A DNA stretch of 64,000 nt, from the NCBI GenBank assembly GCA_029821755.1, contig JALGSV010000005.1, positions 1 through 64,000 on the forward strand, given 5' to 3'. This stretch comes from Candidatus Zipacnadum vermilionense. GTDB lineage: Bacteria; Armatimonadota; Zipacnadia; Zipacnadales; Zipacnadaceae. The position numbers and the translations under genes are program-made. Of the stretch, positions 24,787 to 60,597 are shown one piece after another. Below the pieces are notes generated by a model. It searched no databases. It worked only from the letters and a program-made list of their open reading frames with translations, and was not told the origin of the DNA. How positions within the stretch are numbered: the first letter of the stretch is position 1; each line of letters opens with the position of its first letter.

Positions 24787-24789
24787 GCC

Positions 24790-35372: not shown

Positions 35373-35917
35373 GGTAAGCCTCCGGGGTCGCTTGGAGTGG
35401 GACGAGAAGGGGATTCGCTGGGGGAAGGGAAGGGTCCTCCTCCGTAGGCGGGGAGGCCCCCTCACTACACACCACCGGTGCGCAAGCAAGAGAGGGGGTA
35501 GGCCGGCCGTCACGGAGCGCAACAACACGCGCAAGAACGGCACTACTGCTTCACCAGCATTCCGGGCGGTTTGTCCCACAGTTAAGAGCAGAGCTCTAGT
35601 TACCAGGAGGTATCCTGTGCAGGCTAGCCGAAATAGACTTGGGCAGACGGTGGGGCGCTGATCGTCGATCCTTAGTCGTGGTGACCGCGCGGTAACACGG
35701 CGGCCACTCTAGCCGAGTATGCCCTGGAGGTCGATGAATGAACGTGCCTGATACGAGGCTTCTTAGCTTGGCCGGTCTGGGAATCGCGCCGGCAGCGGCG
35801 GCAGGGCGCGCGACAGGAAGCCGACGCCGGCCCTGCTTCTCTCGGGCCCAAAGCAAGCGATCCCGAGTCGATTCCTCTCCCCGCGGAAAACCGTCATTGC
35901 GCTGGAGGCCATTCTGC
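35373..35917. other. Intergenic region, no gene supported
   Basis: Divergent gap between the GH38 gene and the next cassette. It contains a CCCCTC...GAGAGGGGG pyrimidine/purine stretch near 35455-35503 resembling a decayed CCTCACCCCC repeat. Short open frames here have no signal, ribosome site or recognisable product. No clear promoter was found. Confidence 0.5.
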
Positions 35918-37816: not shown

Positions 37817-37818
37817 CC

Positions 37819-39726: not shown

Positions 39727-42563
39727 AAATGAGACACTCTCCTCGTAGGGGCGGCTGCCACGAGACGATAGTCGGCGGCGTGCGCGGGCGGATGTTGGCC
39801 CGCAGACGGCCCAACATCCGCCCCTACGTGTGGGCAGCGGCGGCCCTGCTGCTCTGCACTGTCGCCTGCGCTCAGGAGACGGTTCTCTACCAGGCCAACT
39901 GGGGCCAGGGCGACCAGGGCCTGGACGGCTGGACGGTGACGAAGGTGGTCCGGGCCGGTCTGGACGCCCAGGGCGTGCCCACGCTGGTCTCTGGGCCCGG
40001 CACGGCGACTAGCCCCCGACTCCCGGTAGCGGGCGATCACCGGATTCACTTCCGCTTCCGCTTCTCCCGAGCAGCAGGAGCCCCGCTGTACGCCTCTGTC
40101 CGCCAGTTCCAGCAGGGCACGCAGCTTCCCGGCTCCTTCCAGCTCTGGGTGCAGCAACCCGCCATCGCCGATCTCACGCCGACCGAGCTGGGCTTCACCT
40201 CGCGTCCCGACGCCGACGCCTTCGACCTGATCTTCTCCGGCGTGGAGGCTACCTTTACCGGTCTACAGGTAGTGGACCTAGGGCCACGGCCGGAGATCAA
40301 GCCGGATGGCAAGGAACTCATCCCTAACGGCGGCTGGGAGGAAAGCGCGCCGCGGACGGCAATTGGGTCGGAAAGCTCCTACTTCCAGGGCCCCGGCTGG
40401 ATGGGTTGGTTAGCGGACGCGAGCAAGACCGTCACCAGCGTCCCCGACCGGGTCCACTCCGGCAAACAGGCCTTGATGGTTCTGACCGGCAGCGGCGCCG
40501 CCGCGAGCGCCGGCTTCCGTTACCTGCCCGCGATCCCCGTCGTCCCCGACGCCCTGTACGACTTCTCCGCCTGGGTCAAGGGCGAGGGCACGATCTCGCT
40601 CTACTACCTGGTGGGCGGAGAATGGGGCGACTCCTACGCCACGAGCAATGGCGAGGTCATGGTCTCGCCTGAGGAGTGGCGACAGATTCACTACGTCTTT
40701 GCCGCCGACCACCCCACGCACAAAGCGATCACCATGGGGGCGTTCGTTAAAGGGCGCGTTTTCATCGACGATCTCTCGCTGAAGCAGATCACCTCGACGC
40801 AGGCCGAGGAGTTCCGGCAGGTGATGGCCGACTATCCCCCCGCGCCGCCGGCCGTAGCCCAGACCGTCCCGGAGGGTGAGACGCGCCCGGCCGAACCGGT
40901 GACCCTGGAGAACACCCACCTGCGCGCCGAACTCTCGCCCGTCGGTGGCGGGCGCGTCGTGGAGTTGACCGACAAGCTGACCGATACGACGTGGCAAGGG
41001 AACCTCCTGGCACTGAACTTCCCCGACCAGCCGGTGGCGATTAGCTGGAATGTGCCTTTCCAGACGGAGGTCTCCCCCGAGGGGCAGCAGGTGACCTTCA
41101 GTCACACCGTCACCGGGGGAGCGGCAGCGCCGTTTCTGGACGGCATCAGGATTGAGCAGGTCTTCAGGCTGGGTCCAGAGGACCGCGCACTAAGCGTGAC
41201 CTGGCGGCTGGCCAACATTGCCGCCGGCCCGCGCCTCCCTAATCCCGCGGTGAGCACCGTCTGCGCCGCCGAGGCCGGTGTCCGTCGCCTCGCCACCTAC
41301 GGCGACAAGGGGCTCCTATCCACCGAGACCGACGCGACCTCCACCCGCAACCTCGCCGCTGGCTGGATGGCCGCCTCCACCGAGAAGTCATCCCTGGTCT
41401 GCGTCTTCGATGTGACCGCCGCCCAGGATGGCTACCTCAACCCCCAGGCGCGGTCGCTGGTCTGGAACTACCTGCGTCTGACGCTGCCGCCGGGAGGGGC
41501 GTGGGAGACCCAGGCGTGGTTGGCCTCGGTACCGTTGCCCGAGGTGGAGTACGCCGACCGCAACGTCGCGGTACAGGCTGCCCTGAGCAAGCAGGGCGAC
41601 CGCTACGCTCTAGCGGTGGGGGCAGCGGCACTAGGTACGCCGCCGACGCAGTTGGCGCGGGCGCAAGTGGTGGACTACGGCGGCGGAGAGCTCGCCGAGG
41701 CCACCACCGCCAAGCCGGCCCTCTTCCCCGAGCCGGACGCGCGGTTCATCACCAAGCTGATTCTGCAATCCGGCCAGATTCCCTACACCGTGGAGCTGTT
41801 CAACGATCCCCGCGGCAGCACCCCCGGCATCCAGGGCGCCTCGGAAGTGCAGTACCGACCCACGGTGCCTGCCCGGGTGCTGCGGCTGCCGGACCTGGGG
41901 GATCTGCGCGGGCAGATTGCGCAGAGCCACACGGTGCTCTGGGCCAAGGGGATATGGTTCCAGTACTACCCGCTGGAGGCGCCGCTACAGAAGGCCGGGC
42001 TCAGCGTGGAGAGCCTGGATGGTGGGCCTGGTTTCCCGGAGGAGGCCGAGGAATTGGCCGCCTACCGAATGGTGGTGCTGAACAATCTAGGGGCGGCGCA
42101 ACTGACCGCGGCGGCGCGAGCGGCCCTGTCGCAGTACGTCCGAGCCGGCGGGAGGCTGCTGGTGCTGGGCGGGTCGCTGGGGCTGGGGAATGCCCTGACC
42201 AAGGGGACGGACCTGGAGGGCATGCTCCCGGTTGAACTCAGCGGCCCCTTCGACACTGTCCCCCTGACCGGCGACGCCCAGCTCTTCCACCCGGTACGGG
42301 GCTCGGGCCTGGGTCCCCTGCCGTGGCCGCACCAACCACGGCTCTACTGGCGGCACCAGATCACCCCGCGCCCCGAGGCCACGGCGATTGCCCTGGCGGG
42401 GACGGAGCCGGTGCTGCTGGAGTGGCCCTTCGGGCGAGGGAAGGTCCTGCTCTATGCGGGTACGATCGAGGGCGAGGCGAAGCGGGGCGAGGTCGCGGTC
42501 TGGGACTGGGCGGGGTGGCCGGGATTGTGGGAGATGATGGTGGAGAAGTTGCTGTCGCCGTAG
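39723..42563 (+). CDS. Secreted CBM-like/GATase1-like protein with repeat-derived leader (family member 4)
   Basis: Up to 946 residues. Its first ATG overlaps the preceding stop (ATGA); a second candidate, ATG 39792, starts a tighter signal peptide (RRRPNIRPYVWAAAALLLCTVACAQ). A palindromic repeat (39744-39828) is read in frame across this leader. Mature protein: jelly-roll-like segment to ~210; CBM4/9-like module (~215-370; IPNGGWEESAP, VHSGKQALMVLTG, WRQIHYVFAAD); beta-sandwich (~390-720); GATase1-like end with YRMVVLNNLG, YVRAGGRLLVLGG, LEGMLPV and GRGKVLLYAG. The DYN..LY.C signature is not preserved. No Cys at the elbow. It closes the 35918-42563 operon. Confidence 0.68.
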   Translation: MKMRHSPRRGGCHETIVGGVRGRMLARRRPNIRPYVWAAAALLLCTVACAQETVLYQANWGQGDQGLDGWTVTKVVRAGLDAQGVPTLVSGPGTATSPRLPVAGDHRIHFRFRFSRAAGAPLYASVRQFQQGTQLPGSFQLWVQQPAIADLTPTELGFTSRPDADAFDLIFSGVEATFTGLQVVDLGPRPEIKPDGKELIPNGGWEESAPRTAIGSESSYFQGPGWMGWLADASKTVTSVPDRVHSGKQALMVLTGSGAAASAGFRYLPAIPVVPDALYDFSAWVKGEGTISLYYLVGGEWGDSYATSNGEVMVSPEEWRQIHYVFAADHPTHKAITMGAFVKGRVFIDDLSLKQITSTQAEEFRQVMADYPPAPPAVAQTVPEGETRPAEPVTLENTHLRAELSPVGGGRVVELTDKLTDTTWQGNLLALNFPDQPVAISWNVPFQTEVSPEGQQVTFSHTVTGGAAAPFLDGIRIEQVFRLGPEDRALSVTWRLANIAAGPRLPNPAVSTVCAAEAGVRRLATYGDKGLLSTETDATSTRNLAAGWMAASTEKSSLVCVFDVTAAQDGYLNPQARSLVWNYLRLTLPPGGAWETQAWLASVPLPEVEYADRNVAVQAALSKQGDRYALAVGAAALGTPPTQLARAQVVDYGGGELAEATTAKPALFPEPDARFITKLILQSGQIPYTVELFNDPRGSTPGIQGASEVQYRPTVPARVLRLPDLGDLRGQIAQSHTVLWAKGIWFQYYPLEAPLQKAGLSVESLDGGPGFPEEAEELAAYRMVVLNNLGAAQLTAAARAALSQYVRAGGRLLVLGGSLGLGNALTKGTDLEGMLPVELSGPFDTVPLTGDAQLFHPVRGSGLGPLPWPHQPRLYWRHQITPRPEATAIALAGTEPVLLEWPFGRGKVLLYAGTIEGEAKRGEVAVWDWAGWPGLWEMMVEKLLSP
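39744..39828. repeat. CGTAGGGGCGG-family palindrome inside a coding leader
   Basis: Begins with CGTAGGGGCGG, contains inverted arms GGGCGGATGTTGGCC (39786-39800) and GGCCCAACATCCGCCC (39808-39823) and ends CCTACG. It is the same family as 6238-6377 and is translated as residues ~8-35 of the gene at 39723. Confidence 0.72.
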
Positions 42564-45048: not shown

Positions 45049-45222
45049 ATGATACCCCACCTCGGTCCGCTGGAAATACTGCTCATCGTCCTGGTTATCC
45101 TGCTACTCTTCGGCGCCTCACGCATACCGAAGCTCATGCGCAGCCTGGGGCAAGGGGTGAAGGAGTTCAAACACGGGGTGCAGTCAGAGGGCGAAGACAA
45201 GGAAGAGGACGAAGACGCCTAG
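45049..45222 (+). CDS. tatA: Sec-independent translocase subunit TatA/TatE
   Basis: 57 residues; too short to notice unless read from ATG 45049, which has an ideal AGGAGGA site. A short N-terminus, one transmembrane helix (about residues 8-21; ILLIVLVILLLFG) with the conserved Phe21-Gly22, the amphipathic helix ASRIPKLMRSLGQGVKEFKHG and a highly acidic tail are the TatA hallmarks. TatA forms the twin-arginine pore for folded proteins. No tatB or tatC is adjacent. The next gene (45413) encodes a giant protein with a twin-arginine motif, and 190 nt separate them, so a dedicated or locally associated export role is plausible. A weak terminator follows the stop. Confidence 0.9.
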   Translation: MIPHLGPLEILLIVLVILLLFGASRIPKLMRSLGQGVKEFKHGVQSEGEDKEEDEDA

Positions 45223-45245
45223 GGCGTGAGCAATCGCGCCCTTTT
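45221..45245 (+). terminator. Weak intrinsic terminator after tatA
   Basis: AGGGCG (45221-45226) pairs with CGCCCT (45237-45242) across a 10-base loop, followed by TTT. The short stem suggests only partial termination, so read-through into 45413 is possible. Confidence 0.4.
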
Positions 45246-45412
45246 CGCTTAAGCGGCCGGACACTGCATCGGAGCCGTTGCCGGCCGGGAGTATGGCTGG
45301 CGTTGGCGGCGGGCGGGAAGCCCTGTGCATCAGAATGCACCAGCATCAGAATGCACCAGGCCCTACGTGGAGGCAGGCCGCAGGGCCTGTGCTACCCTCG
45401 GGAGGCGATGAG

Positions 45413-48400
45413 ATGGGACGCACTCGCTTGGACCTAGCGGCGTTGCGCGCGAACCGTTTGCTCCGGCCGCCTGGGGGTGAACCGACCCTCGACCATCTGT
45501 TGGCCTCCGAAGGGGGACTGACCCTCTCGCGGCGCGAATTGCTCAGCCTCGCCGGGGTAGCCGTCCTCACCGTTCCTCCCCTGACCAAACGCCTGGGCGC
45601 CGGCCTACTGGGCTCCTTCCACCTGCGCCGCGAAAGCAAGCGGGCGGCCTTCTGCCTGGGCAACCGCGAGCGGTGGGTTATTGACACCAGCCGCTTCGGG
45701 GGCGCGCCCCGACTGGAGGTGACTGAGGAGGCGGACCTGGTGCGGGTGCGCCTGACCGGAGCTACCTGGCCCGGCACCGGAGTGCCGGCGGATCTGGTGG
45801 CGGAGGCGCGTAAGGCGCTGTCGGGGTGGCGGCTGCGGCTGCAACTGGCCTGGGGCAAGCTGGAGGCGGAGGCACCGCTGGAGGCGTGGTTGGCTGGAGC
45901 CGAGCCCGCTCGAGCCTCCGGGCGATTGGAGACGCATTCGGTAGCTCTGGGCGAGGGTTCCTCACTAGCGCTGGGTGGGACGGCGCAGGTGGAGTTTCGC
46001 CCGGACTGGACCTGCCGTTTGCGCGGGTCGCAGGTGGCAACGGTCTCCTTGCCCGGAGCGGAGGTAGCGGCGGACACTGTCACCCTCGGGCTGGCGGCAC
46101 CGGAGGCTCCCAGCGTGCTGCGTCAGCCGGCGCGGCGGCGCGCAGTGGTAGTGCTGGAGCGGGGCAACCGCTCCTGGCCTCTAGGGGCGGCGCTGGCAGT
46201 AGGCCACGGCGATAGCCTCGCCGCAGAAGGTCACACTTTTGACAGCTTGACCATCGAGTCCGGGGAAACGGCCCGCGGGCTGGTTCGCCACGCGATGGTC
46301 GCCCAAGGCGAGGGTGAGGCCGGGGCCGGCTTCCGACCCGGCGGCGGCCTCCAGGGAACGGAGGGGCAGGACTTCTCCCTACCTCTGCGCAACCCGCGCT
46401 ATGCGATCGCTTTCGACGGACCGGCGCCGGAGGCGGCGCTGGTAGCCGACTACCCGGAGAATCCGGTGTGGATGCGCTTGGATGGCTGCAGCATACGGTT
46501 GGGCCAGGACCCGGCCGATCTGGCCGGGGCGCCGTTCGAGAGCGTGGCTCGTGGCGGCCGGTTGCGCTGGACACGCTGTGAGCCGGCGCTGCTGGGCGTC
46601 GCGGTGGCCCTACCGGATGCCCTGGTGGAGGCCGTCCCCGAGGAGCCGGGCGCCCGGATGATGCTGCTGGCTGCGAACGGAGCGACCGCAGCTCCCCCTT
46701 CCCGCGTGCCAACAGCCGAACAGCCCACCGTGCGACCTGCGACGGGCACCGTCCTCACCCGACCGGGAATCGGGGTCTCGCTCAGGCTTCCGCCCCTGGT
46801 GCTGTCGATCATCCGCCATCAGGACCTGCTGGCGCTGACCTTCCGCTTCACCAACCTGCGCTTGCAGGTGCAGAGCGGCAAACCGGCGGTGCTGACCCGG
46901 ATCAACGCGGCCAATCCCGCCTTCGTCAACGTGGAGTTCCCGCCGCAGCACGTCGGGGAGGAGGCGCTCTTCGAGGCGGATAGCGATTACCCGACCTCGA
47001 AGGAGTACCACCCCGCCGGCGTCCCTCCCGATCCCGATGCTGGCAAGAGCGATACCGATCCCTTCAACGGCCCACCGCTCAAGGCGCGGCTGGGCGGCCC
47101 GACCCGACTGTCCTTCCGCATACCGGACGACATCAAGCAGATCCCGTATACCTTGCGAAACCTGTTGGACTGGTCCAAGTGGGACCTGTCGGTCTCGCCG
47201 CGGGCCTTGCCGGGACCGCTGCCGCCACGCTTCAAGGTGGTCCGGGAAGGGGGCAAGGCGCGGATCCTAGCTCCGGAAGCCACCAGCAAGCTCGCCCCCA
47301 GCGGGCCCCGCACCGGACCGGCCCGGGCCATTGGGCCGGTCACCCCACCTGCCGGTCCCGTGTCCACTGCAACCTCTCCCGCTTTGCAACCCTCCGCCGG
47401 GGTGATGCTGCCCGCGGAGATCATGAACATCACCCCGCAGATGATGGCCGCCATGGCCGAGGTCAAGGCGCCTGGTCCGGACCAGACCTCCGTCGAGGCT
47501 CCCTACCGGCTCATGCTCTCCCCTAACCAGTCCGCCGGCTTCCTGCACGCCATTCAGCCGGTCAAGCGGGGCAAGCAGACTGAGTTGTGGCACACCCGCC
47601 TGGGTGTGAAGGGCGACAACGGCAACCTGTATGACCTCTCCTACGAGTACGCCTGGGATGGCAACTCCTTGCGAGTGGTCAAGTTCACTCCCGGCGAGGA
47701 TCCCTTCGACGCCTTGCGCACCGTGCGGGCTATCTGGTCGCAGGACTACGCAGAGACCTGCCCGCCACACAACAACCTTCCCTTCCGTATGTCCCTGGAC
47801 GGCCATGACCGCTGCGAATTGGTCATGTTGACCTCCGACTGGAAGATCAAGGACTGCCTCCAGCGCGTGGTGGAGGCGCGCCGGTTGATGCTGACCTCGC
47901 TGGGGGCGTGGCTCGACACGCGCTACGGGGCGGAGCTGCCTTTGGGGGAGGGACTGTCGGTGGAGGAGTGGCGGCACATCGCCACTATGGGCCGCGACCA
48001 GTTCGTGCGCGTTGTGTACAAGGGGTACCTCTTCCCCTTCGGCCACCGCGCCGCGCTGGTCAAGGTCACCGAGCGTAAGTTTGAGCGGCTCGGTAACCAA
48101 AACTACGCCATTCTACGCCAGCGGATGTTTATCATCGTGCGCGAGCCGCTCAAGACGTACGTCGCCTACGGCCAGGCCCACGACGGCCGGGCCATGCCCT
48201 TCCGCCGTGTGCGGGTCACCACCTTGGTTACGCCGAACCTGGGCAAGCCCGAGAACAGCCCGGTCCTGCCCAATAACTACTCCGCCCAGGGCGGCTTCTG
48301 GCCGATGGTCGGCAGCCAGCCCTTCCCCTTCCACTACGAGGCCGAGGACTGGGTCGGGCAACGCAGCGACTTCCTGGCGCCGGCTATCTTCGTGGGGGTG

Positions 48401-50194
48401 GAAAACGTCCCCGGCACCAAGAACAGCGTGGCCTTCGACGCGGCCAGCAGCGACCTGATCATCAAGCATTACCTGCTGCCGAAGAACGATGACCGGCGCC
48501 AGGTGGAGATGCTGGGGCAGGAGGTAGCCATGGCGGAGAGCAAGACCCCGGGCGACACCAGCCTGGAGGTCACCCGCTTCACGCTGGGCGCGGAGCGGGA
48601 GGACAGTACCAAGACCTACCCGGCGCTGGACCTGGAGGTCAACAACCAGCCGCGCTTCTACCCCACGCTGGAGCGGGCGGAGGTGCGCCTGACCGCAGTA
48701 GCCCAGGCCACCGGCGGCGCCAGCGATACCGCCATCGTCCTGCACAAGGGGTACGTGGAGGGCGGTTGGGGAGGCAATCCCGGCGAGGTCTTCGCCGCCA
48801 TGGCCCCGGGCTCGGCGCTGGGCCTGAACTTCAACGCCGACCAGGCCGGCGGGCTGGCCATGCCCAACCTGGACATTAAGGGGCTCTCCCGCAGCTTCGG
48901 CCCCGTCGGTGGAGACATCGACAAGCTGGCCGGCGGCAACTTCGACCCCATGTCGTTCTTCTCGGACTTCGCGCTGCTCTTCGGGGTCATCCCGCTGGGG
49001 AAGATCATCGAGGCCGTGTTCGAGGAGATGCAGATCCCCGGCCTGGTGACGGAGATGGAGAAGAACGCCTCCGGCGTGCCCACCGCGCAGATCGTGCGCT
49101 TCGGCTGGCACCCCAAGATCAAGTCCTGGCCCGATGAGGACAAGCCCATCTTCGAGGTGGCCAAGGGCGCCAAGTTGAGCCTGGAGGCGATGCTCCGCGT
49201 CGACCTACAGGGCGGCGAACCTAAGGCCATCGTCAAGGGCAGCCTGCCGAACTTCGGGGTCAACTTGGTACCGGTGGGCAGTATCAACTACTTCATCCGC
49301 GTGACCTTCAAGAACATCAATTTCGCCGCCGAGACCGGCAAGAAGACCGATGTTAACGTGGACATGGGGGAGATCAAGTTCGGGGGCCCCCTGTCGTTCG
49401 TCAACATCCTCGCGGACCTGATCCCACTCGATGGCTTCAGCGACCCGCCCTACCTGGACGTCGACTCCTCGGGCGTCGTAGCCGGCTACTCTCTAGCCAT
49501 CCCCGGAATAGGCGTGGGGGTCTTCAGCCTGCAGAACATCTCCTTCGGCGCGGAGTTGCGTCTGCCGTTCCTCGGCGCGCCGCTGAGCATGCGCTTCGCC
49601 TTCTGCGAGCGGGAAAGCCCCTTCCTGCTGTCCGTGTCCATGTTCGGCGGGGGCGGCTTCGTGGCCCTGGAGGTCAACCCCAGTGGCCTGCAACTCGTGG
49701 AGGCCTCGCTCGAGTTCGGCGGCAACTTTGCCTTCGATATCGGCGTGGCCAGCGGCGGCATCTACATCATGGCCGGCATCTACTTCAAGCTGGAGAGCTC
49801 GGAAGTGGAACTGAGCGGTTACGTCCGCATGGGCGGCTCACTCTCGGTGCTGGGGCTGATCACCATCTCCCTGGAGCTGTACCTGGGGCTGACCTACAAG
49901 AGCGCCGGAAACCAGGTCTGGGGCCAGGCCAAGGTGTCGGTGTCCATCGAGATCCTGTTCTTTAGCTTCAGCGTGAGCTTCACGGTGGAGCGGCAGTTCG
50001 CCGGCTCCTCCAGCGGCGCGGCTCTGCCGGGGCTGGAGTTGGCGGCTCTCGAGGATACCCCCGCCACTCGTCCCCGCATCCCCGCCCTGCCCAAGCCCGA
50101 CGTGGGCATGCTGTACAAGCCGGTGGAGGAAGTGACCTTCGAGGACCTGGTGAAACCGATCGACTGGAAGAGGTACTGTGCGGTCTTCGCCTAG
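45413..50194 (+). CDS. Giant protein of unknown function with twin-arginine motif
   Basis: 1593 residues from ATG 45413 (GGGAGG, 8-nt spacing); earlier in-frame starts cross the gap. Residues 39-48 read SRRELLSLAG with a hydrophobic run LLSLAGVAVLTVPPL behind, the form of a Tat signal or anchor with an unusually long n-region (~38 residues). No clear AxA cleavage site. About 1000 residues of mixed beta structure follow with Pro/Ala linkers (~630-680). The last ~350 residues hold alternating, Gly-rich amphipathic strands (GVFSLQNISFGAELRLPFLG, FGGGGFVALEVN, YVRMGGSLSVLGL, VSIEILFFSFSVSFTVE) like a beta-helix or barrel. I cannot assign a family. It is paired with 50306 and preceded by tatA. Confidence 0.75.
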   Translation: MGRTRLDLAALRANRLLRPPGGEPTLDHLLASEGGLTLSRRELLSLAGVAVLTVPPLTKRLGAGLLGSFHLRRESKRAAFCLGNRERWVIDTSRFGGAPRLEVTEEADLVRVRLTGATWPGTGVPADLVAEARKALSGWRLRLQLAWGKLEAEAPLEAWLAGAEPARASGRLETHSVALGEGSSLALGGTAQVEFRPDWTCRLRGSQVATVSLPGAEVAADTVTLGLAAPEAPSVLRQPARRRAVVVLERGNRSWPLGAALAVGHGDSLAAEGHTFDSLTIESGETARGLVRHAMVAQGEGEAGAGFRPGGGLQGTEGQDFSLPLRNPRYAIAFDGPAPEAALVADYPENPVWMRLDGCSIRLGQDPADLAGAPFESVARGGRLRWTRCEPALLGVAVALPDALVEAVPEEPGARMMLLAANGATAAPPSRVPTAEQPTVRPATGTVLTRPGIGVSLRLPPLVLSIIRHQDLLALTFRFTNLRLQVQSGKPAVLTRINAANPAFVNVEFPPQHVGEEALFEADSDYPTSKEYHPAGVPPDPDAGKSDTDPFNGPPLKARLGGPTRLSFRIPDDIKQIPYTLRNLLDWSKWDLSVSPRALPGPLPPRFKVVREGGKARILAPEATSKLAPSGPRTGPARAIGPVTPPAGPVSTATSPALQPSAGVMLPAEIMNITPQMMAAMAEVKAPGPDQTSVEAPYRLMLSPNQSAGFLHAIQPVKRGKQTELWHTRLGVKGDNGNLYDLSYEYAWDGNSLRVVKFTPGEDPFDALRTVRAIWSQDYAETCPPHNNLPFRMSLDGHDRCELVMLTSDWKIKDCLQRVVEARRLMLTSLGAWLDTRYGAELPLGEGLSVEEWRHIATMGRDQFVRVVYKGYLFPFGHRAALVKVTERKFERLGNQNYAILRQRMFIIVREPLKTYVAYGQAHDGRAMPFRRVRVTTLVTPNLGKPENSPVLPNNYSAQGGFWPMVGSQPFPFHYEAEDWVGQRSDFLAPAIFVGVENVPGTKNSVAFDAASSDLIIKHYLLPKNDDRRQVEMLGQEVAMAESKTPGDTSLEVTRFTLGAEREDSTKTYPALDLEVNNQPRFYPTLERAEVRLTAVAQATGGASDTAIVLHKGYVEGGWGGNPGEVFAAMAPGSALGLNFNADQAGGLAMPNLDIKGLSRSFGPVGGDIDKLAGGNFDPMSFFSDFALLFGVIPLGKIIEAVFEEMQIPGLVTEMEKNASGVPTAQIVRFGWHPKIKSWPDEDKPIFEVAKGAKLSLEAMLRVDLQGGEPKAIVKGSLPNFGVNLVPVGSINYFIRVTFKNINFAAETGKKTDVNVDMGEIKFGGPLSFVNILADLIPLDGFSDPPYLDVDSSGVVAGYSLAIPGIGVGVFSLQNISFGAELRLPFLGAPLSMRFAFCERESPFLLSVSMFGGGGFVALEVNPSGLQLVEASLEFGGNFAFDIGVASGGIYIMAGIYFKLESSEVELSGYVRMGGSLSVLGLITISLELYLGLTYKSAGNQVWGQAKVSVSIEILFFSFSVSFTVERQFAGSSSGAALPGLELAALEDTPATRPRIPALPKPDVGMLYKPVEEVTFEDLVKPIDWKRYCAVFA

Positions 50195-50197
50195 GCC

Positions 50198-50270
50198 CCG
50201 CGTGGCGCGGGCTTTATGGCCCGCGTCTGACTCCGCCGGGGAGGGCGGGCGGGAAGCCCGCCCCACGCGG
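50198..50270. repeat. CCGCGTGG-family imperfect palindrome, copy 2
   Basis: Seventeen-base arms at 50198-50214 and 50254-50270 are inverted repeats with one mismatch and match copy 1 at 2480-2578. It occupies most of the gap between the two giant genes. Confidence 0.72.
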
Positions 50271-50305
50271 AGAGAGAACTTAGCGACCCTCTCAGGAGGC
50301 GTGGC

Positions 50306-53300
50306 ATGAACAAGCAAACCACCATCTGGACAGCGTTGCCTAACGGGATGGGGACCGCGGGAGGAGCACACCTGAAGATCTCCGTGCTGGTCTCCCCGCG
50401 GCTGGAAAGCACGGACGCCGCCTGGCTCAGCCTGGCCGACCCGGCCTATGCCGACTTCCTGCACTGGCCGGAGACGGTCAAGTCCATGCAGTTCACCGTC
50501 AAGTTCCAGGGACGCCCCGCGCTGACGATCTCTCCGGTGATCAAGCCCCTGGACGATTCCCTGTGGACGGCGCTCTTCAAACCCGCGACCCCCGTGGAGC
50601 CCTACAAGATCCCCGATGTCGGCAAGCTGCAGATCAACTCCTTCCCGGTGCGCAACGTGGCCATGCGCCTCAAGGAAGCCTACCAGGCTGTCGCCATCAA
50701 CTCGCCCGTGGTGCTGCCCCGGGCCGACCTGAAGACGCCCACGCTGCAGCCGGCTCGCCGGTTGTTCCAGAACATGGCGCCGTCGGCCCAGCAGCGGACG
50801 GCGATCAACCGGGGTCTGGCCTCCAAGCTGCAAGGCAGCCAAGTGCGGGCGCTGCGCGTGCCAGCCTACCGGTCGCCCACCTCCGTGGCCACGCACACGG
50901 AGATGAAGTTTGTGCCGATGGCGGCGGAGGCCCCGCTGGTCGCGGGCGTATCGCAGGCCCAGGCAGACTTCGTGCAGTTCCAGGACTTCCATGCCTCCCT
51001 GGTCGGGCCTTACAAACCACTGCCAGCTGTGGCCACGCTGATCGAGTCGATCGATTTTCATCAGATCGTGGCCAACCTGCAGCAGTACCCCATGGTGATG
51101 CGCAAGCTGGGGCTGGTGCTCGAGTTGCAGGTACCCCTGGACCCGGCGCTGGTCGGGGCCCAGTGGGTGCGCGTTTCACCCGTGGGCACGCCTGCGGCGA
51201 CCAAGCCGACAGTGGCGCCGCGGACCAACATTACCCTCGATAGCGAGCGCTTTGTGGCCAAGCCCAAGAACGCCGATAGCGACATCGCCGACGGGATGCT
51301 GCCCCTGAACGACACGGATAAGTTCGAGATTGGACAGGTCGACGTGGATGGCGCCGCGCTCAAGCTGGCCCAGGTCGCGCAGCAGATCACGGTCAAGCCC
51401 ATATTCATGATGGTTGCGCCGGTCCGCGTCGGTACCGGTGGCGCCCCGGCTCCTACGGCTCCCGCGGCCCCCGCGTCGGAGAAGGACGAGGCGGCTCCCC
51501 TGCCTACCTTGCGCTCCGCCGGCATTTGGGTAGCGCGTGTCGACCGCGCTCCCCAGGTGGCGCTCGCGCTGCAAAGGACCGCTCTGTTCAACCAGGCGGT
51601 GCTGGACAATAAGCCGGAGGAGATCTCCCTTTACGCCGAGGACCTGGTGCGCGGCTACCGGATCGACGTATGGGACGAGACTGCCGACAAGTGGTTCTCG
51701 GTGTGTCAGCGGGTCGGTCGGTACAAGTTTGCGGCGCTGAGCCAGACCCTGGCCATGCAGGATGAAGGCTGGGTCTCCAACGCCGCGGTGGAGTCAGCGA
51801 CCAAGCCCAACGAAGTCTACGTGCACGAGACGATGTTCCGCTGGGAGGGGTGGAGCCTAGTGGCGCCCCGGCCGGGTGGCGCGGTCGAGCCGCATTCGGG
51901 GGCGCAGCCCGTCACCGACAGGTTCGGGCTGGACGTCACCTTCAGCGCCAAGCCCCTCTCCCTGCCGCGCCTGCGCTTCGGGCGCGAGTACCGTCTGCGC
52001 GCACGCGTGGTCGACCTGGCCGGCAACGGTCTGGCCCTGGACGAGGCCGACGACTCGGCCGCCACCCCGCCGCACACCTACTTCCGCGCTGAACCGGTCC
52101 TCCCCCCGATCGTCATCCCGCGCACGCCGCTGGACGACAAGACCCCCGGCGAGTCCGCGGAGGTCCTAGCCATTCGCAGCCGTAACGATAGGCCGGCCAA
52201 AGACGACGACGTCATCAACAAGGTCTCCCAGCGCCACCTCCTTCCGCCACGCACCTCGCAGTTGATGGCGGAGACGCACGGCGAGTTCGACGGACCGCAG
52301 AGCATGAAGGGCGACGCGGCGACCTACCAGATGATCGTGAACAAGGACGTCAAGCCCCGGCGGTTCTACAACTTGGACCAAGTTATCCTGCCCTACCTCC
52401 CCGATCCGCTGGCCTATGGTGTGCTCGTCCGGCTCAGGATGCTGCCCTCCTCGGGCAAGCCGCCCCCGATCGCCGCGCCTCCGCCTGCCCCGGCCCCACC
52501 GTCGGCCGCAGCCACAAGAGGTCAGTCCAACCTCCGCGTGGGAGGCTTCGGAGCGGGCATCGTTAAGCTGGCGGCCCGACCCAATCTGCTGTTTATCGAG
52601 CCCCAGGATCAGATTCTCAAGATCCCCTTCGGGGAGGACTGGCCGGACCTCAAGCCGGTGCGTCTGGTGCTGTACGAACCCAAGGACCCCGCGACTAAGA
52701 TGACCTACGTGAAGGCCAAGCGGGTCCTGCAGGTGCCGCTGTCTAAAGGCGAGGCGGCCGAACTGTGGATCAGCTGCTACCTGAAGCCCACCGCGCTGCC
52801 GAAGATGCAGCTGTGGCGCTGGACAGTGGAGGGGGTGGCGGCGCCAACGGTGCGCAAGGCCAACCTGGCCCCCGCCCAGGCGCTGGAGTTGCACCGCAAG
52901 CTGCATCAGCCCGCGGCCGTGCCGCAGTGGAGCGCCCAGGTGAAGCTACCCGCGCGCCTGGTGAAGGACCTGGACACGCTGGCCGTTCAGGCGCGGGACG
53001 GGCGCAACTGGCTCACCACGCCCTTCCGACGACTCAATCTCGTCCATGCCACTCAGCAGCCGCTGGGCCGACCGCACTTCCGCAGCCTAGGGGCCAGCCG
53101 GAGCATCGGCCAGACCTTTGCGGCCTTGCACGACGACGTAGCGGTCTCCGGCAAGACCACCAACAAGCTGGAGATCCTGGCCAAGTGGCAGGAGCGGATC
53201 GACCCGCTAGGCAAGCCCAAGTGGGAGACGCTCGATGGGCAGGCGCGGGTCGGCGAGATAGCGGTAGACCGCGATGACGCGGCCCTGGCCCTGGGCGGCC

Positions 53301-54454
53301 TCCCCCACGAGTTCCACGACACCAAGTACCGCCACGTTAAGTACCAGGCGGTGGCGACCACCCGCTACGCTGACTACTTCCTCATGCGCGGCAGGCAGGA
53401 CCCTCCCCCGCCGAACCTCGTGTTCACCCGGACCTCCTTCCCTAGCGAAGGAGAGATAGACGTACTCAGTTCTGCTCGGCCGTTGGCCCCCAAGGTACTG
53501 TACGTCATCCCCGCCTTCGGCTGGGATAGCGACGACACCCCGATGAAGATCACCAGCACGCGCACTGGCGGCTGGCTACGGGTCTACCTGGAGCGCCCCT
53601 GGTATTCCTCCGGCGATGGCGAGTTGCTTGGCGTGGTCCTCGGCCCGCCACCGCCTACCGGGATCAGAATCGCGGCCCGGCCCGCCACGGCTGCCATGCA
53701 GGAGAAGCTCAAGCCCTGTGTCACTCACTGGGGCCAGGACCCCCTGTGGGTGGCTCCCCCCATGCGCGCCTGGCCGGTGGCGGCCGACTTCAAGGGTGCC
53801 GCCGCCACCGAGACCGGCCTGTCTTTGGAGGAGGTCCCCGGCGCAAAGGTCTCCGTGGTAGGTTACGACGTGGCCTACGACCAGAAGCGGCAGCTATGGT
53901 ACGCTGACATCCAGGTAGACTGCGGCGAGGCCTACTACCCCTTCATCCGCCTGGCCCTGGTGCGCTACCAGCCCAAGTCGATCAGCGGCGCCCAGGGGGA
54001 TGTGAAGCTCTCGCGAGTGCAGTTGGCCGACATGGCTCAACTGGCCCCCGACCGAAAGGCGACGCTGACCTTCAACGCGGGCGATCCCAAGCGGGTGGCG
54101 ATCCGCGTGACCGGCCCCACCTACCAGCGTTCTGCCGCCTCGCGGGGCTCCAGCGAGATGGTGGTGACCCTGGAGGAACGGACTGGGCCGCTACTGGACG
54201 CCTCCTCCTGGAGGCCGGTACCCGACGTGGAGCTTACCCTTAACCACTCCCTTATTCGCACCGTCGGGTTTGCCTGGGCCGGCAACCTGGTCCTGCCCGC
54301 CTCACGCAAGACCAAGAACTACCGCTTGGTGCTCAAGGAATACGAGACCTTCCTGGCCGATGCGCCCCCCCCGACCGGGCTGCCCCTGTTAGCGGCACTG
54401 CCCACCACCGTCCCGGCCAAGCGCGTGGTCTATGCCAACGTAATGGAGGTCTGA
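50306..54454 (+). CDS. Giant partner protein of unknown function
   Basis: 1382 residues, AGGAGG before ATG 50306. No signal peptide or membrane segment. The N-terminus TALPNG...LKISVLVSPRL looks like a conserved opening, but I cannot name a family. Mostly beta-rich, with Pro/Ala linkers near residues 370-395 and 710-740. Fibronectin-like patches are seen (FGREYRLRARVVDLAGNGL, YRVEL-like ends, WYADIQVDCGEAYYPFIRLALVRYQP in part). A Pro-rich C-terminus precedes the stop. Position directly after 45413, similar size and shared style suggest that the two proteins act together. If the first is exported by Tat in folded form, this protein could be carried as a bound partner. A terminator follows 45 nt after the stop. 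Confidence 0.72.
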   Translation: MNKQTTIWTALPNGMGTAGGAHLKISVLVSPRLESTDAAWLSLADPAYADFLHWPETVKSMQFTVKFQGRPALTISPVIKPLDDSLWTALFKPATPVEPYKIPDVGKLQINSFPVRNVAMRLKEAYQAVAINSPVVLPRADLKTPTLQPARRLFQNMAPSAQQRTAINRGLASKLQGSQVRALRVPAYRSPTSVATHTEMKFVPMAAEAPLVAGVSQAQADFVQFQDFHASLVGPYKPLPAVATLIESIDFHQIVANLQQYPMVMRKLGLVLELQVPLDPALVGAQWVRVSPVGTPAATKPTVAPRTNITLDSERFVAKPKNADSDIADGMLPLNDTDKFEIGQVDVDGAALKLAQVAQQITVKPIFMMVAPVRVGTGGAPAPTAPAAPASEKDEAAPLPTLRSAGIWVARVDRAPQVALALQRTALFNQAVLDNKPEEISLYAEDLVRGYRIDVWDETADKWFSVCQRVGRYKFAALSQTLAMQDEGWVSNAAVESATKPNEVYVHETMFRWEGWSLVAPRPGGAVEPHSGAQPVTDRFGLDVTFSAKPLSLPRLRFGREYRLRARVVDLAGNGLALDEADDSAATPPHTYFRAEPVLPPIVIPRTPLDDKTPGESAEVLAIRSRNDRPAKDDDVINKVSQRHLLPPRTSQLMAETHGEFDGPQSMKGDAATYQMIVNKDVKPRRFYNLDQVILPYLPDPLAYGVLVRLRMLPSSGKPPPIAAPPPAPAPPSAAATRGQSNLRVGGFGAGIVKLAARPNLLFIEPQDQILKIPFGEDWPDLKPVRLVLYEPKDPATKMTYVKAKRVLQVPLSKGEAAELWISCYLKPTALPKMQLWRWTVEGVAAPTVRKANLAPAQALELHRKLHQPAAVPQWSAQVKLPARLVKDLDTLAVQARDGRNWLTTPFRRLNLVHATQQPLGRPHFRSLGASRSIGQTFAALHDDVAVSGKTTNKLEILAKWQERIDPLGKPKWETLDGQARVGEIAVDRDDAALALGGLPHEFHDTKYRHVKYQAVATTRYADYFLMRGRQDPPPPNLVFTRTSFPSEGEIDVLSSARPLAPKVLYVIPAFGWDSDDTPMKITSTRTGGWLRVYLERPWYSSGDGELLGVVLGPPPPTGIRIAARPATAAMQEKLKPCVTHWGQDPLWVAPPMRAWPVAADFKGAAATETGLSLEEVPGAKVSVVGYDVAYDQKRQLWYADIQVDCGEAYYPFIRLALVRYQPKSISGAQGDVKLSRVQLADMAQLAPDRKATLTFNAGDPKRVAIRVTGPTYQRSAASRGSSEMVVTLEERTGPLLDASSWRPVPDVELTLNHSLIRTVGFAWAGNLVLPASRKTKNYRLVLKEYETFLADAPPPTGLPLLAALPTTVPAKRVVYANVMEV

Positions 54455-54609: not shown

Positions 54610-56583
54610 ATGCCCCGCAGATTACTTGCCTTGGCTGCTCTTGTCGCCGTCCTCTTCCTGACCGTCCCCCTGCTTGCCGCCGTGGAGGTCTCCGAGCAGC
54701 CCGCCCCGGAGAAACTGGGCGGGGTCAAGCTTCACGTCAAGAACGAGTTCTTCACCCTTGACTTCGTCCCGATGGGCGGCTACGCCTCCTCCTTACAGAC
54801 CCGCTACAGCGACCGCGATTGGCTATGGACCGGATCGGCCCTGGCAGACAGCGGGCACCTGTTCCTGGACAACTGGATGGGCGATTTGTACCCCGGAGAG
54901 CTGTGCTTCCTCAAGCGCGACTACGAGGTCCTCCAGAAGGGCCCGGACGTCGTCGAGATCAAGTTCACCTGCACCACCAAGCAGAAGTTCCTCCTGGAGA
55001 AGACGATTACCGTCCGCGCCGGTTCCCCGGCGGTACACTGTGTCCTCCGCCTCACTAACCAGGGAAACGAGACCCTCACTCGCGGCCTGTGGCCCAAGAC
55101 CGACGTGGCCCTCTCCGGGATCAAGCCTCACACCTATTACTACCGCCCCTACGAGCGTGGGGTGTTGGTCAACGGCTGGAGCGAGGAGAAGAAGACCAAC
55201 GTGGGCGAGGACTGGCTGCGCACCCCGACCGAGGGCTGGACTGCCGCCCTCCAGGCTGACCACAACGAGGGTCTGGTCTGGCTGATGGACTACAACTGGC
55301 TGCGCACCCTCTACGACTGCCTCTCCTGTTGGACGGTGGAATGGTTCTACGACGAGCTGCCCTTCCCGCCCGGCTACAAATGGGAGACAGCTTACGACAT
55401 GATCCTTCTGAAGGGCTTCACCAACATGGCCCACGCCGCGCCGACGGTGCTGGCGGGGATGACCATGGAGGCGAAGAAGGCTTTTGACCTGGTCAACCCC
55501 GACAACCCTGACCGGCCGGACCTGGTGCAGATCACGCATACGCTCTCCCGCTCCACGCTGGGCGACTTGACCGACGTCAAACTCACCTCCCAGTTGCTCG
55601 AGGTCGACACGGCGCAAGTCCACCCGCTCAAAGACGTCACCACCGATAAGCTGACCTGGGAGCCGGTGGAGCTGGTCCAGAGCACCGAGTGCAACCCGGA
55701 CATTCGCCTGCTGTGCCAGGCGCTGCTCACGGCCACCGGGCCGGACGGCCAGCCGGTCAGCGAGAACTACGAATACTACTGGCCCGGCGTGGGGGGCGAG
55801 AAGTTCAACCTGGTGGCCGGCGCCATTCAGGCCACTTACTACCGCCCGCCGCCCAAGAAGGTCAAGCAGTTTCCGAAGCCCAAGGGTCTCAAGTACGTCC
55901 TCAACTTCCCGGCCCGCGCGCTGGAGTTCCGCGGACCGGGCTACGGCAAGCTGCGCCTGATGGAGGCGGCGGCGAGGGCGGGAATCCGCGACTGGATCGG
56001 CTCCTACTTCTCCTTCACCTGGGCCGGGGGCAAGTGTACCAAGGCGCCGGTAAGCTACGAGGAGGCGTACTCCTACGACCTGTACGTGCTCAACGGCGTC
56101 AATGCCCAGAGCCTGACCGACTTCGGCCAGGAGGCGCTGCGCGACTACGTGGCGGCGGGCGGGGCGCTGCTGATGACCGGCGGGTTCTTCAGCTACGGCG
56201 CGGGCGGGTATGCCGACTCGCCCCTGGCGGAGATGCTGCCGGTCAAGTTCTCCGACCAGCTCCCCGACCTGCAGCAGCTCCAGCCCCCGGCGCCCCTCCG
56301 CGTGGGACGCGACGCCCAGGCCCTGGCGGGGGTGAAATGGGCCGCCAGTCCCCTCTGCTTCTGGCGGCACCGTCTGCGGCCCAAGCCGGAGGCCTGGGTG
56401 GAGCTGGGCGCCGGCGACCAGCCGCTGCTGATCTGTGGCACCTTCGGTAAGGGCCGCGTAGCCGTCCTGGCGTCCACCGCCTTGGGCGACCCCCAGCCCG
56501 GCCAGACGCCCTACTGGGAAGACCCGACCTGGCTTGACAACATGGCGAAGCTGATGCATTGGCTGGTGTTTGAGAAGAAGTAG
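54610..56583 (+). CDS. Secreted beta-sandwich protein with cysteine-less GATase1-like domain (family member 5)
   Basis: 657 residues; ATG 54610 after AGGAG; signal peptide LLALAALVAVLFLTVPLLAA. Shared signatures: YPGEL (~residue 97) and MDYNWLRTLYDC (~226), then EWFYDELPFPPGYKW. Unlike member 3 it has a longer central beta region (~250-440). The C-terminal module has FRGPGYGKLRLMEAA, YDLYVLNGVNAQ, YVAAGGALLMTGGFFSYGAGG, LAEMLPV and FGKGRVAVLAS. The elbow again lacks Cys. The gene downstream is the barrel paralogue 56658, repeating the sandwich-GATase/barrel pairing found at 35918-39726. Confidence 0.72.
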   Translation: MPRRLLALAALVAVLFLTVPLLAAVEVSEQPAPEKLGGVKLHVKNEFFTLDFVPMGGYASSLQTRYSDRDWLWTGSALADSGHLFLDNWMGDLYPGELCFLKRDYEVLQKGPDVVEIKFTCTTKQKFLLEKTITVRAGSPAVHCVLRLTNQGNETLTRGLWPKTDVALSGIKPHTYYYRPYERGVLVNGWSEEKKTNVGEDWLRTPTEGWTAALQADHNEGLVWLMDYNWLRTLYDCLSCWTVEWFYDELPFPPGYKWETAYDMILLKGFTNMAHAAPTVLAGMTMEAKKAFDLVNPDNPDRPDLVQITHTLSRSTLGDLTDVKLTSQLLEVDTAQVHPLKDVTTDKLTWEPVELVQSTECNPDIRLLCQALLTATGPDGQPVSENYEYYWPGVGGEKFNLVAGAIQATYYRPPPKKVKQFPKPKGLKYVLNFPARALEFRGPGYGKLRLMEAAARAGIRDWIGSYFSFTWAGGKCTKAPVSYEEAYSYDLYVLNGVNAQSLTDFGQEALRDYVAAGGALLMTGGFFSYGAGGYADSPLAEMLPVKFSDQLPDLQQLQPPAPLRVGRDAQALAGVKWAASPLCFWRHRLRPKPEAWVELGAGDQPLLICGTFGKGRVAVLASTALGDPQPGQTPYWEDPTWLDNMAKLMHWLVFEKK

Positions 56584-56657
56584 TGGCGAGTGGGGGGCGG
56601 CGAGTGGGTGCAGGCGGGGACCGTGGATAACCGATGGAGCTACGGGTGAATTCTGCT

Positions 56658-58568
56658 ATGAGGAACCTTCTGCTAACCCTAGTGGTGGCCTTGCTGACAG
56701 GTGCGGGGGCCTGGGCCGCCGATTCTTTCACCGTCTCTCCCTGGCCTGACCAGGTCCGCTACGACCCAGGCGAGACCGCTTCCTTCCAGGTAAGCGTGAA
56801 GAACGCCTCCGGGCAGGCCTTCGCCGGGAAGCTGGCCGTCCGCGTCATCTGGGAGATGGAGGACACCCAGGCCCTGGCCGAGGTACCCGTGGCGCTGGCC
56901 GACGGGGAAGCCAAGACCTTCCCCGCCCAGTGGACGAAGCTACCCGAGGTGCTCGGCTGCGAGGTCCGCGCCGATCTCCTGGACGCCGCCGGCAAGCAGG
57001 TGGCGACCGGCAGCGAGTACTTCAACGTCTGCCGCACCAAGGACACCTGCCGCGTCGGCATCCACGCGGTCACGCTGGGCCTGATCACCACCTCCGATCC
57101 GGCCTACCTGGCGACGATCCCCGGCACCATCCTGTGGTCCCGCCAGTCCTACGTCAACATCGGCGAGCACTTTCTCAGCAAGAGCTCCGTGCTGGACCTG
57201 GCCCCGGACGTGGACGAGATGATGGGCGGTGACTACTGGAACTCCGTCACCGCCATCCGTACCGCCATCGACGAGAGCCACAAGCTTGGCATGAAGAACG
57301 TGGTCTACACCACCTCCTACGCCACGCACGGCCTGGCGGACCTGGACCTGTCCATGCGTCACCCCGAGTGGCTGGCCTACAACGACTACGGCCAGCCCGA
57401 CGGCGCCTCTGTCAATGTGGTGCAAGAGGACAAGCGCCGCACCCCCATCTGGCGCCAGCACGACAACCCCGGGCCCTTCAACAGCGCCAACTTCAACTGG
57501 CTCAACCCCCAGCTGCTCGACTTCCACATCGATTCGCTGATCGCCAACCACAAGCTGGTGGGGATGGACGGCGTGCGCTATGACGGACACCCGGGGACCA
57601 TCTGGGCCAAGTACGACATCAACGGCAAGCCCCTGCCCACCGGGGAGGAGCGCCTCAAGGAGACGGTCCGCATCGTGCGCTACATCCGCCAGCGCCTCGA
57701 CGCCGCGGACCCCAACTACATCTGGATGTTCAACGCCGGCACTGCCGTGGGGGGTAACAACCCCGTGGACCTAGATCAGGGCGTGCTGGAGCCCACCTTG
57801 CTGCCGGTGGTGGAAAACGGCGGGGCGATGTGCGATGAGGAGCAGCGCGGCGCCTACAGCGCCTACAACCGCTTCCACGCCTGGAAGAACTTCGCCGACG
57901 TGATGGTCAGCGATGTGGACCTGACCCGCGCCAACGGCGGGTACGCCTACTGCCTCTTCCCCTGGTGCTCGACGGTGCATCGCAACTCCGACGAGATCGG
58001 CTATCAGATCATGCTGGCCGCAGGCGACCATCCCTGGTTCTCCGCGCCGCACGACGAGTACAGCACCAACCCCGGCGGTTCGCACTTCCCCGTGCAACAC
58101 GAGCTGTTCGCCTTCGCTACCCGCTTCTCCGCGATGCTGTGGGGACACGACATCAACCGGGTGCGCCAGGCGGATAAGGTGGTGCAAGTCACCTCCGACA
58201 AGGGGGAGATCTGGTGGAAGAACTTCGTCCACCAGCGCACTCTGGCCGACGGGCGCAAGTACCTGATCGTGCACTTGCTCAACGCCCCGCCCAATAAGGA
58301 GATTGGCGTGACCGAGCAGCCGCTGCCCGACCCGATCGCCAACGTCAAGCTCGCCTTCCAGGTGCCTGTGAAGAAGGTGTGGCTGGCTACCGCCCGCCCC
58401 GGCCCCGCCCGCACGGTCAGCCGCAAGGGCGAGAAGCTCTTCCACTACTCGCAGGCCGAGACCTACGAGGCCATGGGCCCGCTGCAGTGCGCCGCGGCGC
58501 AGGTCGAGGGCGGGACGGTAACGCTGCCGCAGTTGCGGATGTGGACGATGGTGGTAGCGGAGTTGTAG
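56658..58568 (+). CDS. Secreted beta-sandwich/TIM-barrel protein, putative glycosidase (paralogue 3)
   Basis: 636 residues from ATG 56658, preceded by GGTGA; an upstream ATG at 56634 would add eight residues to the leader. Signal peptide LLLTLVVALLTGAGAWAA. The beta-sandwich (~25-130) ends SEYFNVCRTKDT, then a barrel-like region: SHKLGMKNVVYTT, GMDGVRYDGHPGT (candidate catalytic Asp), YIWMFNAGTAVGG, and DVDLTRANGGYAY. The C-terminal beta domain has YLIVHLLNAPP. The length equals that of paralogue 2 (635 residues), supporting the chosen start. Substrate unknown. Confidence 0.7.
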   Translation: MRNLLLTLVVALLTGAGAWAADSFTVSPWPDQVRYDPGETASFQVSVKNASGQAFAGKLAVRVIWEMEDTQALAEVPVALADGEAKTFPAQWTKLPEVLGCEVRADLLDAAGKQVATGSEYFNVCRTKDTCRVGIHAVTLGLITTSDPAYLATIPGTILWSRQSYVNIGEHFLSKSSVLDLAPDVDEMMGGDYWNSVTAIRTAIDESHKLGMKNVVYTTSYATHGLADLDLSMRHPEWLAYNDYGQPDGASVNVVQEDKRRTPIWRQHDNPGPFNSANFNWLNPQLLDFHIDSLIANHKLVGMDGVRYDGHPGTIWAKYDINGKPLPTGEERLKETVRIVRYIRQRLDAADPNYIWMFNAGTAVGGNNPVDLDQGVLEPTLLPVVENGGAMCDEEQRGAYSAYNRFHAWKNFADVMVSDVDLTRANGGYAYCLFPWCSTVHRNSDEIGYQIMLAAGDHPWFSAPHDEYSTNPGGSHFPVQHELFAFATRFSAMLWGHDINRVRQADKVVQVTSDKGEIWWKNFVHQRTLADGRKYLIVHLLNAPPNKEIGVTEQPLPDPIANVKLAFQVPVKKVWLATARPGPARTVSRKGEKLFHYSQAETYEAMGPLQCAAAQVEGGTVTLPQLRMWTMVVAEL

Positions 58569-58572
58569 TCGT

Positions 58573-58611
58573 CCGCGTGAGGCGGGCTTCCCGCCCGCCC
58601 TGCGCGTGGCA
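58573..58611. repeat. CCGCGTGG-family palindrome, shortened copy 3
   Basis: CCGCGTGAGGCGGGCTTC, CCGCCCGCCC and GCGCGTGG form a compact palindrome in the 60-bp gap between 56658 and 58629; it resembles the arms of the copies at 2480 and 50198 with most of the centre missing. Confidence 0.5.
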
Positions 58612-58628
58612 CAGGTGAACACGAATCC

Positions 58629-60452: not shown

Positions 60453-60597
60453 GGGCGCCTGCTGTAGTCGGCAGGGGCGTCTTTTGCGGAGCGAAGCGAA
60501 GCAACGGACGCCCGTTCGCTGACCGAGCGCTAGCGAACGGGCAGCTGTCGGGCTGCGGTCGCGGACGACCGCTTAGCGCCCGAAAGCCGCCCCTACG
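60449..60597. repeat. Inverted-repeat element between convergent genes
   Basis: The left arm GTAGGGGCG (60449-60457) and right arm GCCGCCCCTACG (60586-60597) are inverted. The left arm's TAG ends 58629-60452 on the plus strand, and the right arm's TAG (complement 60593-60595) ends the GH35 gene on the minus strand. The interior shares CGAACGGGCAGCTGTCGGGC with the cluster at 42690-42790. Confidence 0.65.

Follow-up and report, generated by a model that had tools for sequence, protein, structure and literature searches.

The stretch of DNA analysed here (64,000 nucleotides from an Armatimonadota contig, referred to as the window) carries a small tatA gene followed by two giant ORFs, the first of which encodes a twin-arginine motif. 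This arrangement raises the question of whether the three genes specify an exported two-protein complex that is served by its own, locally encoded TatA.

A tatA gene followed by two giant ORFs

A first-pass annotation, made from the sequence without database searches, had described a complete TatA of 57 residues, an ORF of about 1593 residues with the motif SRRELLSLAG (giant 1, referred to as P1), an ORF of about 1382 residues without any signal (giant 2, referred to as P2), and a strong terminator behind the latter. This description held up in every part: the TatA scored above the cut-offs of the TIGR01411 and PF02416 profiles and below that for TatB, the giants count 1593 codons (from the ATG at 45413) and 1382 codons, and the unit ends in a 13-bp hairpin with a TTTT run (Table 1), this hairpin having a z of –2.55 vs. 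shuffled sequences. The three genes lie on the same (+) strand with intact reading frames, and a Shine-Dalgarno-like sequence (AGGAGG or GGGAGG) is found before each of them. Although the mechanical ORF start of P1 is located at 45278, upstream of the chosen ATG, the latter is supported because homologues begin with MxRxRLNLAALR. The P1–P2 gap measures 111 nt in the window, vs. –4 to 103 nt in most other loci. The surroundings of the locus (21730–26700, 35738–42563 and 54610–63073) are rich in genes for secreted proteins, which feature GATase1_like domains, domains that bind carbohydrates, and glycoside hydrolases (GH35, GH66-like).

Table 1. Features of the tatA–P1–P2 locus, in positions of the window.
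Feature	Position	Strand	Remarks
Accessory tatA, 57 aa	45049..45222	+	ATG preceded by AGGAGG; profile matches
Terminator-like hairpin directly 3′ of tatA	45221..45246	+	9-bp stem (45221–45242), TTTT
P1 (giant 1), 1593 aa, 171 kDa, Tat-signal-bearing	45413..50194	+	
P1 twin-arginine signal SRRELLSLAG and h-region of moderate hydrophobicity	45527..45583	+	Residues 39–48; RR codons 45530–45535
P1 core, residues 455–1593	46775..50191	+	Common to homologues of all phyla; AlphaFold2 mean pLDDT 77
P1 residues 1376–1530, long antiparallel amphipathic beta-strand meander with one hydrophobic face	49538..50002	+	Predicted structure
GC-rich hairpins within the P1–P2 gap	50197..50225	+	
P2 (giant 2), 1382 aa, 151 kDa, without signal	50306..54454	+	Ig/FN3-like beta-sandwich chain, predicted on an acidobacterial homologue
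Intrinsic terminator closing the unit, just 3′ of P2	54499..54532 (about)	+	13-bp hairpin, then TTTT

P1 and P2 co-occur in a fixed order

The first-pass annotation had made its proposal depend on both giant families recurring together, and this co-occurrence was found in 15 of 101 relative genomes and across four phyla. A sixteenth P2 carrier (G028) showed no P1, its contig beginning inside P2, and the sole P1 match without P2 (G045) was marginal and covered 53 residues. P2 was detected in 22 of 291 Armatimonadota, in 21 of 299 genomes of the Amycolatopsis family and in 12 of 299 genomes of an acidobacterial class (four of these being partial matches), as well as on plasmids of Streptomyces, Cupriavidus, Diaphorobacter and rhizobia. 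In four genomes of the acidobacterial class (G886, G673, G833 and G676), ORFs of 1156–1351 aa match only ca. 140–165 P2 residues (model positions 425–591), and may possibly represent a more distant family that has one P2 domain in common.

In all loci for which the fetched DNA extended far enough, P1 directly preceded P2 in the same orientation, as in 20 out of 20 Pseudonocardiaceae loci and in loci of Acidobacteriota, Streptomyces, Cupriavidus, Diaphorobacter and Rhizobium. P1-first adjacency thus characterizes essentially every genome examined among Armatimonadota, Acidobacteriota, Actinomycetota and Proteobacteria, the records of the latter two phyla being a non-exhaustive sample. The gaps between both genes range from –4 to 198 nt (usually 0–100 nt), with overlaps of 1–4 nt in some loci. 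The P1/P2 frames of two loci (L036 of G001 and L042 of G007) are broken by a frameshift or stop, reflecting assembly errors or decay.

Neither giant matches a known family

No significant match to P1 or P2 was obtained in Pfam, NCBIfam, PADLOC or PDB sequences, nor did the common cores of both proteins match PDB when run as profiles, while the sole PHROG match was to a family with unknown function (E-value of 0.0014, over 58 residues of P1). That neither giant could be assigned to a family, as had been noted from the sequence, was thereby extended to these databases. A defence system (no PADLOC match) and a known enzyme or structure recognizable by sequence (none found) were both rejected, as was a phage or viral origin, P2 being absent from phage records. 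The only IMG/VR contig with the pair (L084) carries phage genes at one end (by eye, prohead protease-, capsid-, terminase- and HNH-like) and the giants at the opposite end; since the phage genes are far from the pair, this contig is probably a prophage edge.

Structures were predicted with AlphaFold from alignments that left out plasmid-record rows, namely for P2 on an acidobacterial homologue (L033; 1200 residues, 30 sequences) and for the P1 core on window residues 455–1593 (29 sequences). The P2 model (mean pLDDT of 85) is a chain of beta-sandwich domains, for which the fold matches were only to Ig/FN3-type ectodomains and alpha-2-macroglobulin/complement-like chains, with low TM scores and no whole-chain similarity. 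The C-terminal third of the P1 core was modelled as a meander of strands of 10–19 residues, with one face strongly hydrophobic and the other polar. Its matches, to beta-barrels, lipid-transfer beta-sheets and lipovitellin-like folds, were likewise local and of low TM score. Among outer-membrane beta-barrels, the P1 C-terminus matched LptD and porins locally (TM ≤ 0.33, high rmsd), and the existence of signal-less P1 homologues counts against it being such a barrel. Since all fold matches had low TM scores, no fold family is claimed for either giant. Among the homologues, one P2 (L102:7180–11679) ends in a bacterial Ig-like Big_3_5 domain (E-value of 6e-20), and a signal-less actinobacterial P1 variant (L100:2249–6955 and L109:4037–8695) carries C-terminal PQQ-like and WD40 beta-propellers (about residues 900–1550).

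P1 carries a conserved but removable twin-arginine signal

The twin arginine is invariant in those Armatimonadota P1s whose N-terminus could be read, and in eight aligned sequences the SRR and LAG residues are fixed within a variable flanking n-region (the P1 of G015 has TRR instead of SRR). Moreover, divergent P1s with an unrelated n-region yet carry canonical Tat signals (e.g., DRRAFLAGAAGAAMGASAVAQA and SRRLFLRYSGAAGIAAAAA), as found in G205, G103, G172, G160 and G162, in ten Pseudonocardiaceae loci of the L090–L109 series, in the Amycolatopsis locus L035 and in one Streptomyces, while two Acidobacteriota P1s have a Tat signal with an n-region of the Armatimonadota type. The conservation of the twin arginine in P1 homologues, on which the export proposal of the first-pass annotation also hinged, was therefore confirmed for Armatimonadota. 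In G103, a further RR-signal protein (MNDLTRRAFLGKTTQGLGALALASLEAQA; L066:6844–8247) is encoded directly upstream of P1. P1 shows what is looked for in a Tat substrate, an (S/T)RRx-Phi-Phi motif close to the N-terminus and ahead of a stretch of moderate hydrophobicity, with conservation in homologues, and its assignment as such a substrate is supported. Since gene order and RR motif are conserved across genomes at 30–60% protein identity, the arrangement of the locus is not due to chance.

No P1 signal was found in Proteobacteria, some Acidobacteriota, other Actinomycetota and about half of the Pseudonocardiaceae loci, with the N-terminus of some ORFs being ambiguous. Such signal-less P1s mostly begin near P1 residue 460. 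The acidobacterial P1 of L033 has an N-terminal block (LALNLDALRG) that resembles the pre-signal block, with the signal being absent before the next conserved stretch. On a tree of 48 P1s, the alignment of which includes the signal's own columns, signal presence required five changes, and 0 of 500 shuffles were as low. Judged from these sequences, the signal is a heritable and removable module; because the pair exists without any signal in other lineages, export would likewise be removable and lineage-dependent.

Could the RR motif instead belong to an N-terminal part of weak hydrophobicity that is not cleaved and serves a different purpose, leaving the pair intracellular everywhere? The motif is indeed located ca. 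40 residues from the start and hydrophobicity is modest (KD15 of 1.0–2.0), but Tat signals commonly have long n-regions and are not very hydrophobic. Given further that the RR is invariant, that a tatA is linked, and that the divergent homologues combine unrelated n-regions with typical Tat signals and standard AxA-like ends, this explanation is very improbable.

It also had to be considered that P1 alone is exported by Tat, or anchored in the membrane by it, with P2 staying in the cytoplasm and both proteins acting across the membrane or in sequence. In line with this, no P2 homologue has an N-terminal signal, and the window P1 shows no clear AxA cleavage site after its h-region (AQA-type ends are found in G205 and G103) and keeps a conserved stretch behind it, so that P1 could stay membrane-anchored. 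We nevertheless regard separate compartments as unlikely, since P2 is still conserved next to P1 in lineages where the P1 signal was lost, which fits a complex in one compartment, and since P2 is predicted to be an Ig/FN3-like chain, one P2 even bearing the Big_3_5 domain mentioned above.

The linked tatA is an accessory copy that was probably recruited twice

The window TatA (MIPHLGPLEILLIVLVILLLFGASRIPKLMRSLGQGVKEFK) scored 64.2 bits against the NCBIfam tatAE model TIGR01411 (cut-off of 53.9) and 58 bits against PF02416 (cut-off of 21), but only 24.6 bits against the tatB model (cut-off of 56.5), and therefore is a TatA/TatE rather than a TatB. All of the key features checked, i.e., those named in PMC4148689, are present: the TM helix, the FG hinge, the amphipathic helix with its end-of-helix Phe, and the N-terminal acidic residue. 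A short acidic tail follows the amphipathic helix.

The first-pass annotation had named a tatA unlinked in all relatives as an observation that would count against it. A tatA was found directly upstream of P1 in seven of the 14 Armatimonadota loci with visible upstream DNA (G000, G001, G003, G005, G024, G031 and G032, spanning three families), whereas the other half (G002, G007, G011, G015, G017, G019 and G025) had none there; the region upstream of P1 was not visible in G022 and G028, which were left out of this count. In the P2 carrier G028, a tatA at the contig end matches the linked copy of G024. All loci in which this linkage was observed belong to one part of Armatimonadota. The earlier claim of a linked tatA thus stood for part of the relatives.

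Most relatives have one TatA, and the window tatA is an accessory copy. Across 41 genomes, a second TatA was present in 8 of 16 pair carriers vs. 1 of 25 others (Fisher p = 0.00095, to be read as indicative since the genomes are related and partly incomplete). In trees with about 50 informative columns, the linked TatAs fell into two groups, one of which grouped with housekeeping TatAs of its own family, and a single origin was rejected only marginally (p-AU of 0.043). This division into two groups suggests that a tatA was probably recruited to the same giant twice. Regarding the whereabouts of tatC and tatB, which the annotation had left to be located, G000 has one TatC that is unlinked to the locus and one other TatA besides the linked copy; no TatB-like third member was found in this genome beyond the housekeeping and linked TatAs, in line with a TatAC-type system.

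The tatA could alternatively be a TatE-like extra copy for the general Tat system that merely neighbours a substrate gene out of operon convenience. This is how tatA2 behaves in the nap operon of Campylobacter jejuni, where it is not NapA-specific (PMC4148689). Within the relatives, the housekeeping tatA itself adjoins an RR-signal gene (RRDF/RREF) in several loci (among L070–L073, L080, L082 and L083), indicating that even the main tatA is substrate-linked; in these same loci its surroundings mostly include a gene for a small secreted protein and a cysS-like one. Moreover, a hairpin resembling a terminator stands between the tatA and P1 of the window. This feature, which the first-pass annotation had not noted, was not found at the same place in relatives, where no tatA–P1 terminator is conserved. 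Against mere convenience, a tatA probably became linked to this giant on two occasions, and only 1 of 25 relatives that lack the pair has a second TatA; we deem this account improbable.

Proposed export of a giant complex by Tat

Tat export of a giant complex, in which P2 hitchhikes on P1 with the aid of a dedicated TatA, is in our view the best explanation of the locus, and one that we hold with slightly better than even confidence. P1 would fold in the cytoplasm and associate with P2, after which its twin-arginine signal would be recognized by the single TatC of the genome and the signal-less P2 would cross along as a hitchhiker. The local TatA would raise the amount of, or specialize, the TatA assembling around a cargo of this size (171 + 151 kDa). 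Once beyond the cytoplasmic membrane, P1 and the Ig/FN3-like P2 would constitute a multi-domain extracytoplasmic complex, and the large amphipathic beta-sheet modelled for P1 might bind a hydrophobic ligand or the envelope. The gene order, the conservation of the signal, the linkage of tatA and the way it tracks the pair, the lack of known families and the predicted folds are results of the analysis, whereas a physical P1–P2 complex, its co-export, a specificity of the TatA and an extracytoplasmic or envelope role are inferred.

At the gene level, the arrangement is that of a hitchhiker, a signal-less partner being encoded together with a signal-bearing one. On the other hand, the pair occurs without a signal in many lineages, so that it can work in the cytoplasm there, and one in two P1 loci of Armatimonadota lacks an adjacent tatA, which speaks against dedicated export. 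From the original proposal of an exported two-protein complex with a local TatA, the Tat signal, the P1–P2 linkage and the repeated tatA linkage have therefore been retained, but with export as a lineage-dependent trait and with tatA linkage confined to part of Armatimonadota.

Precedents exist for each of these elements. In C. jejuni, tatA2 likewise encodes, alongside a Tat substrate, a TatA paralogue that is short (57 aa) and truncated at its C-terminus, but it is the last gene of a redox-enzyme operon (nap), its product misses two key residues and shows no specificity for the substrate (PMC4148689), whereas the window tatA keeps the key residues and precedes two giants of no known family. 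Tat components are also tied to particular cargos in PhoD–TatAdCd of Bacillus subtilis (PMC6708511) and, as far as described in PMC4148689, in tatE of the Pseudomonas stutzeri nos cluster; in the window, however, only TatA is linked, the single TatC being encoded elsewhere, and the cargo is giant rather than a recognized cofactor enzyme. In PaoABC and other hitchhiker complexes, as presented in PMC4273604, a signal-bearing subunit likewise adjoins genes for signal-less partners, and co-export is proven there, while for P1–P2 it is proposed and the masses are far larger. We found no precedent for two unassigned giants totalling 323 kDa.

This sum exceeds the stated upper size of Tat cargo (150 kDa; PMC6708511), which counts against the proposed export of the complex. 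The constant adjacency of the giants, the conserved signal of P1 and the extra TatA suggest that the folded load exported by this cell ranks among the largest known for Tat. More tentatively, and with rather less than even confidence, a folded heterodimer of 323 kDa, more than twice the stated upper cargo size, might pass through Tat in one piece, aided by a dedicated TatA recruited to the same cargo at least twice, and the new family might toggle between exported and intracellular forms by gain or loss of a signal module. The analysis defines a two-protein family that spans at least four phyla and is named in no searched database. Both the size limit of Tat for folded cargo and the reason why extra TatAs lie beside particular cargos are open questions in the field. 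At this locus, a naturally occurring cargo of excessive size comes together with its own TatA. Since sister genomes either have or lack this TatA, and since signal-less homologues exist, both questions can be tested by comparison.
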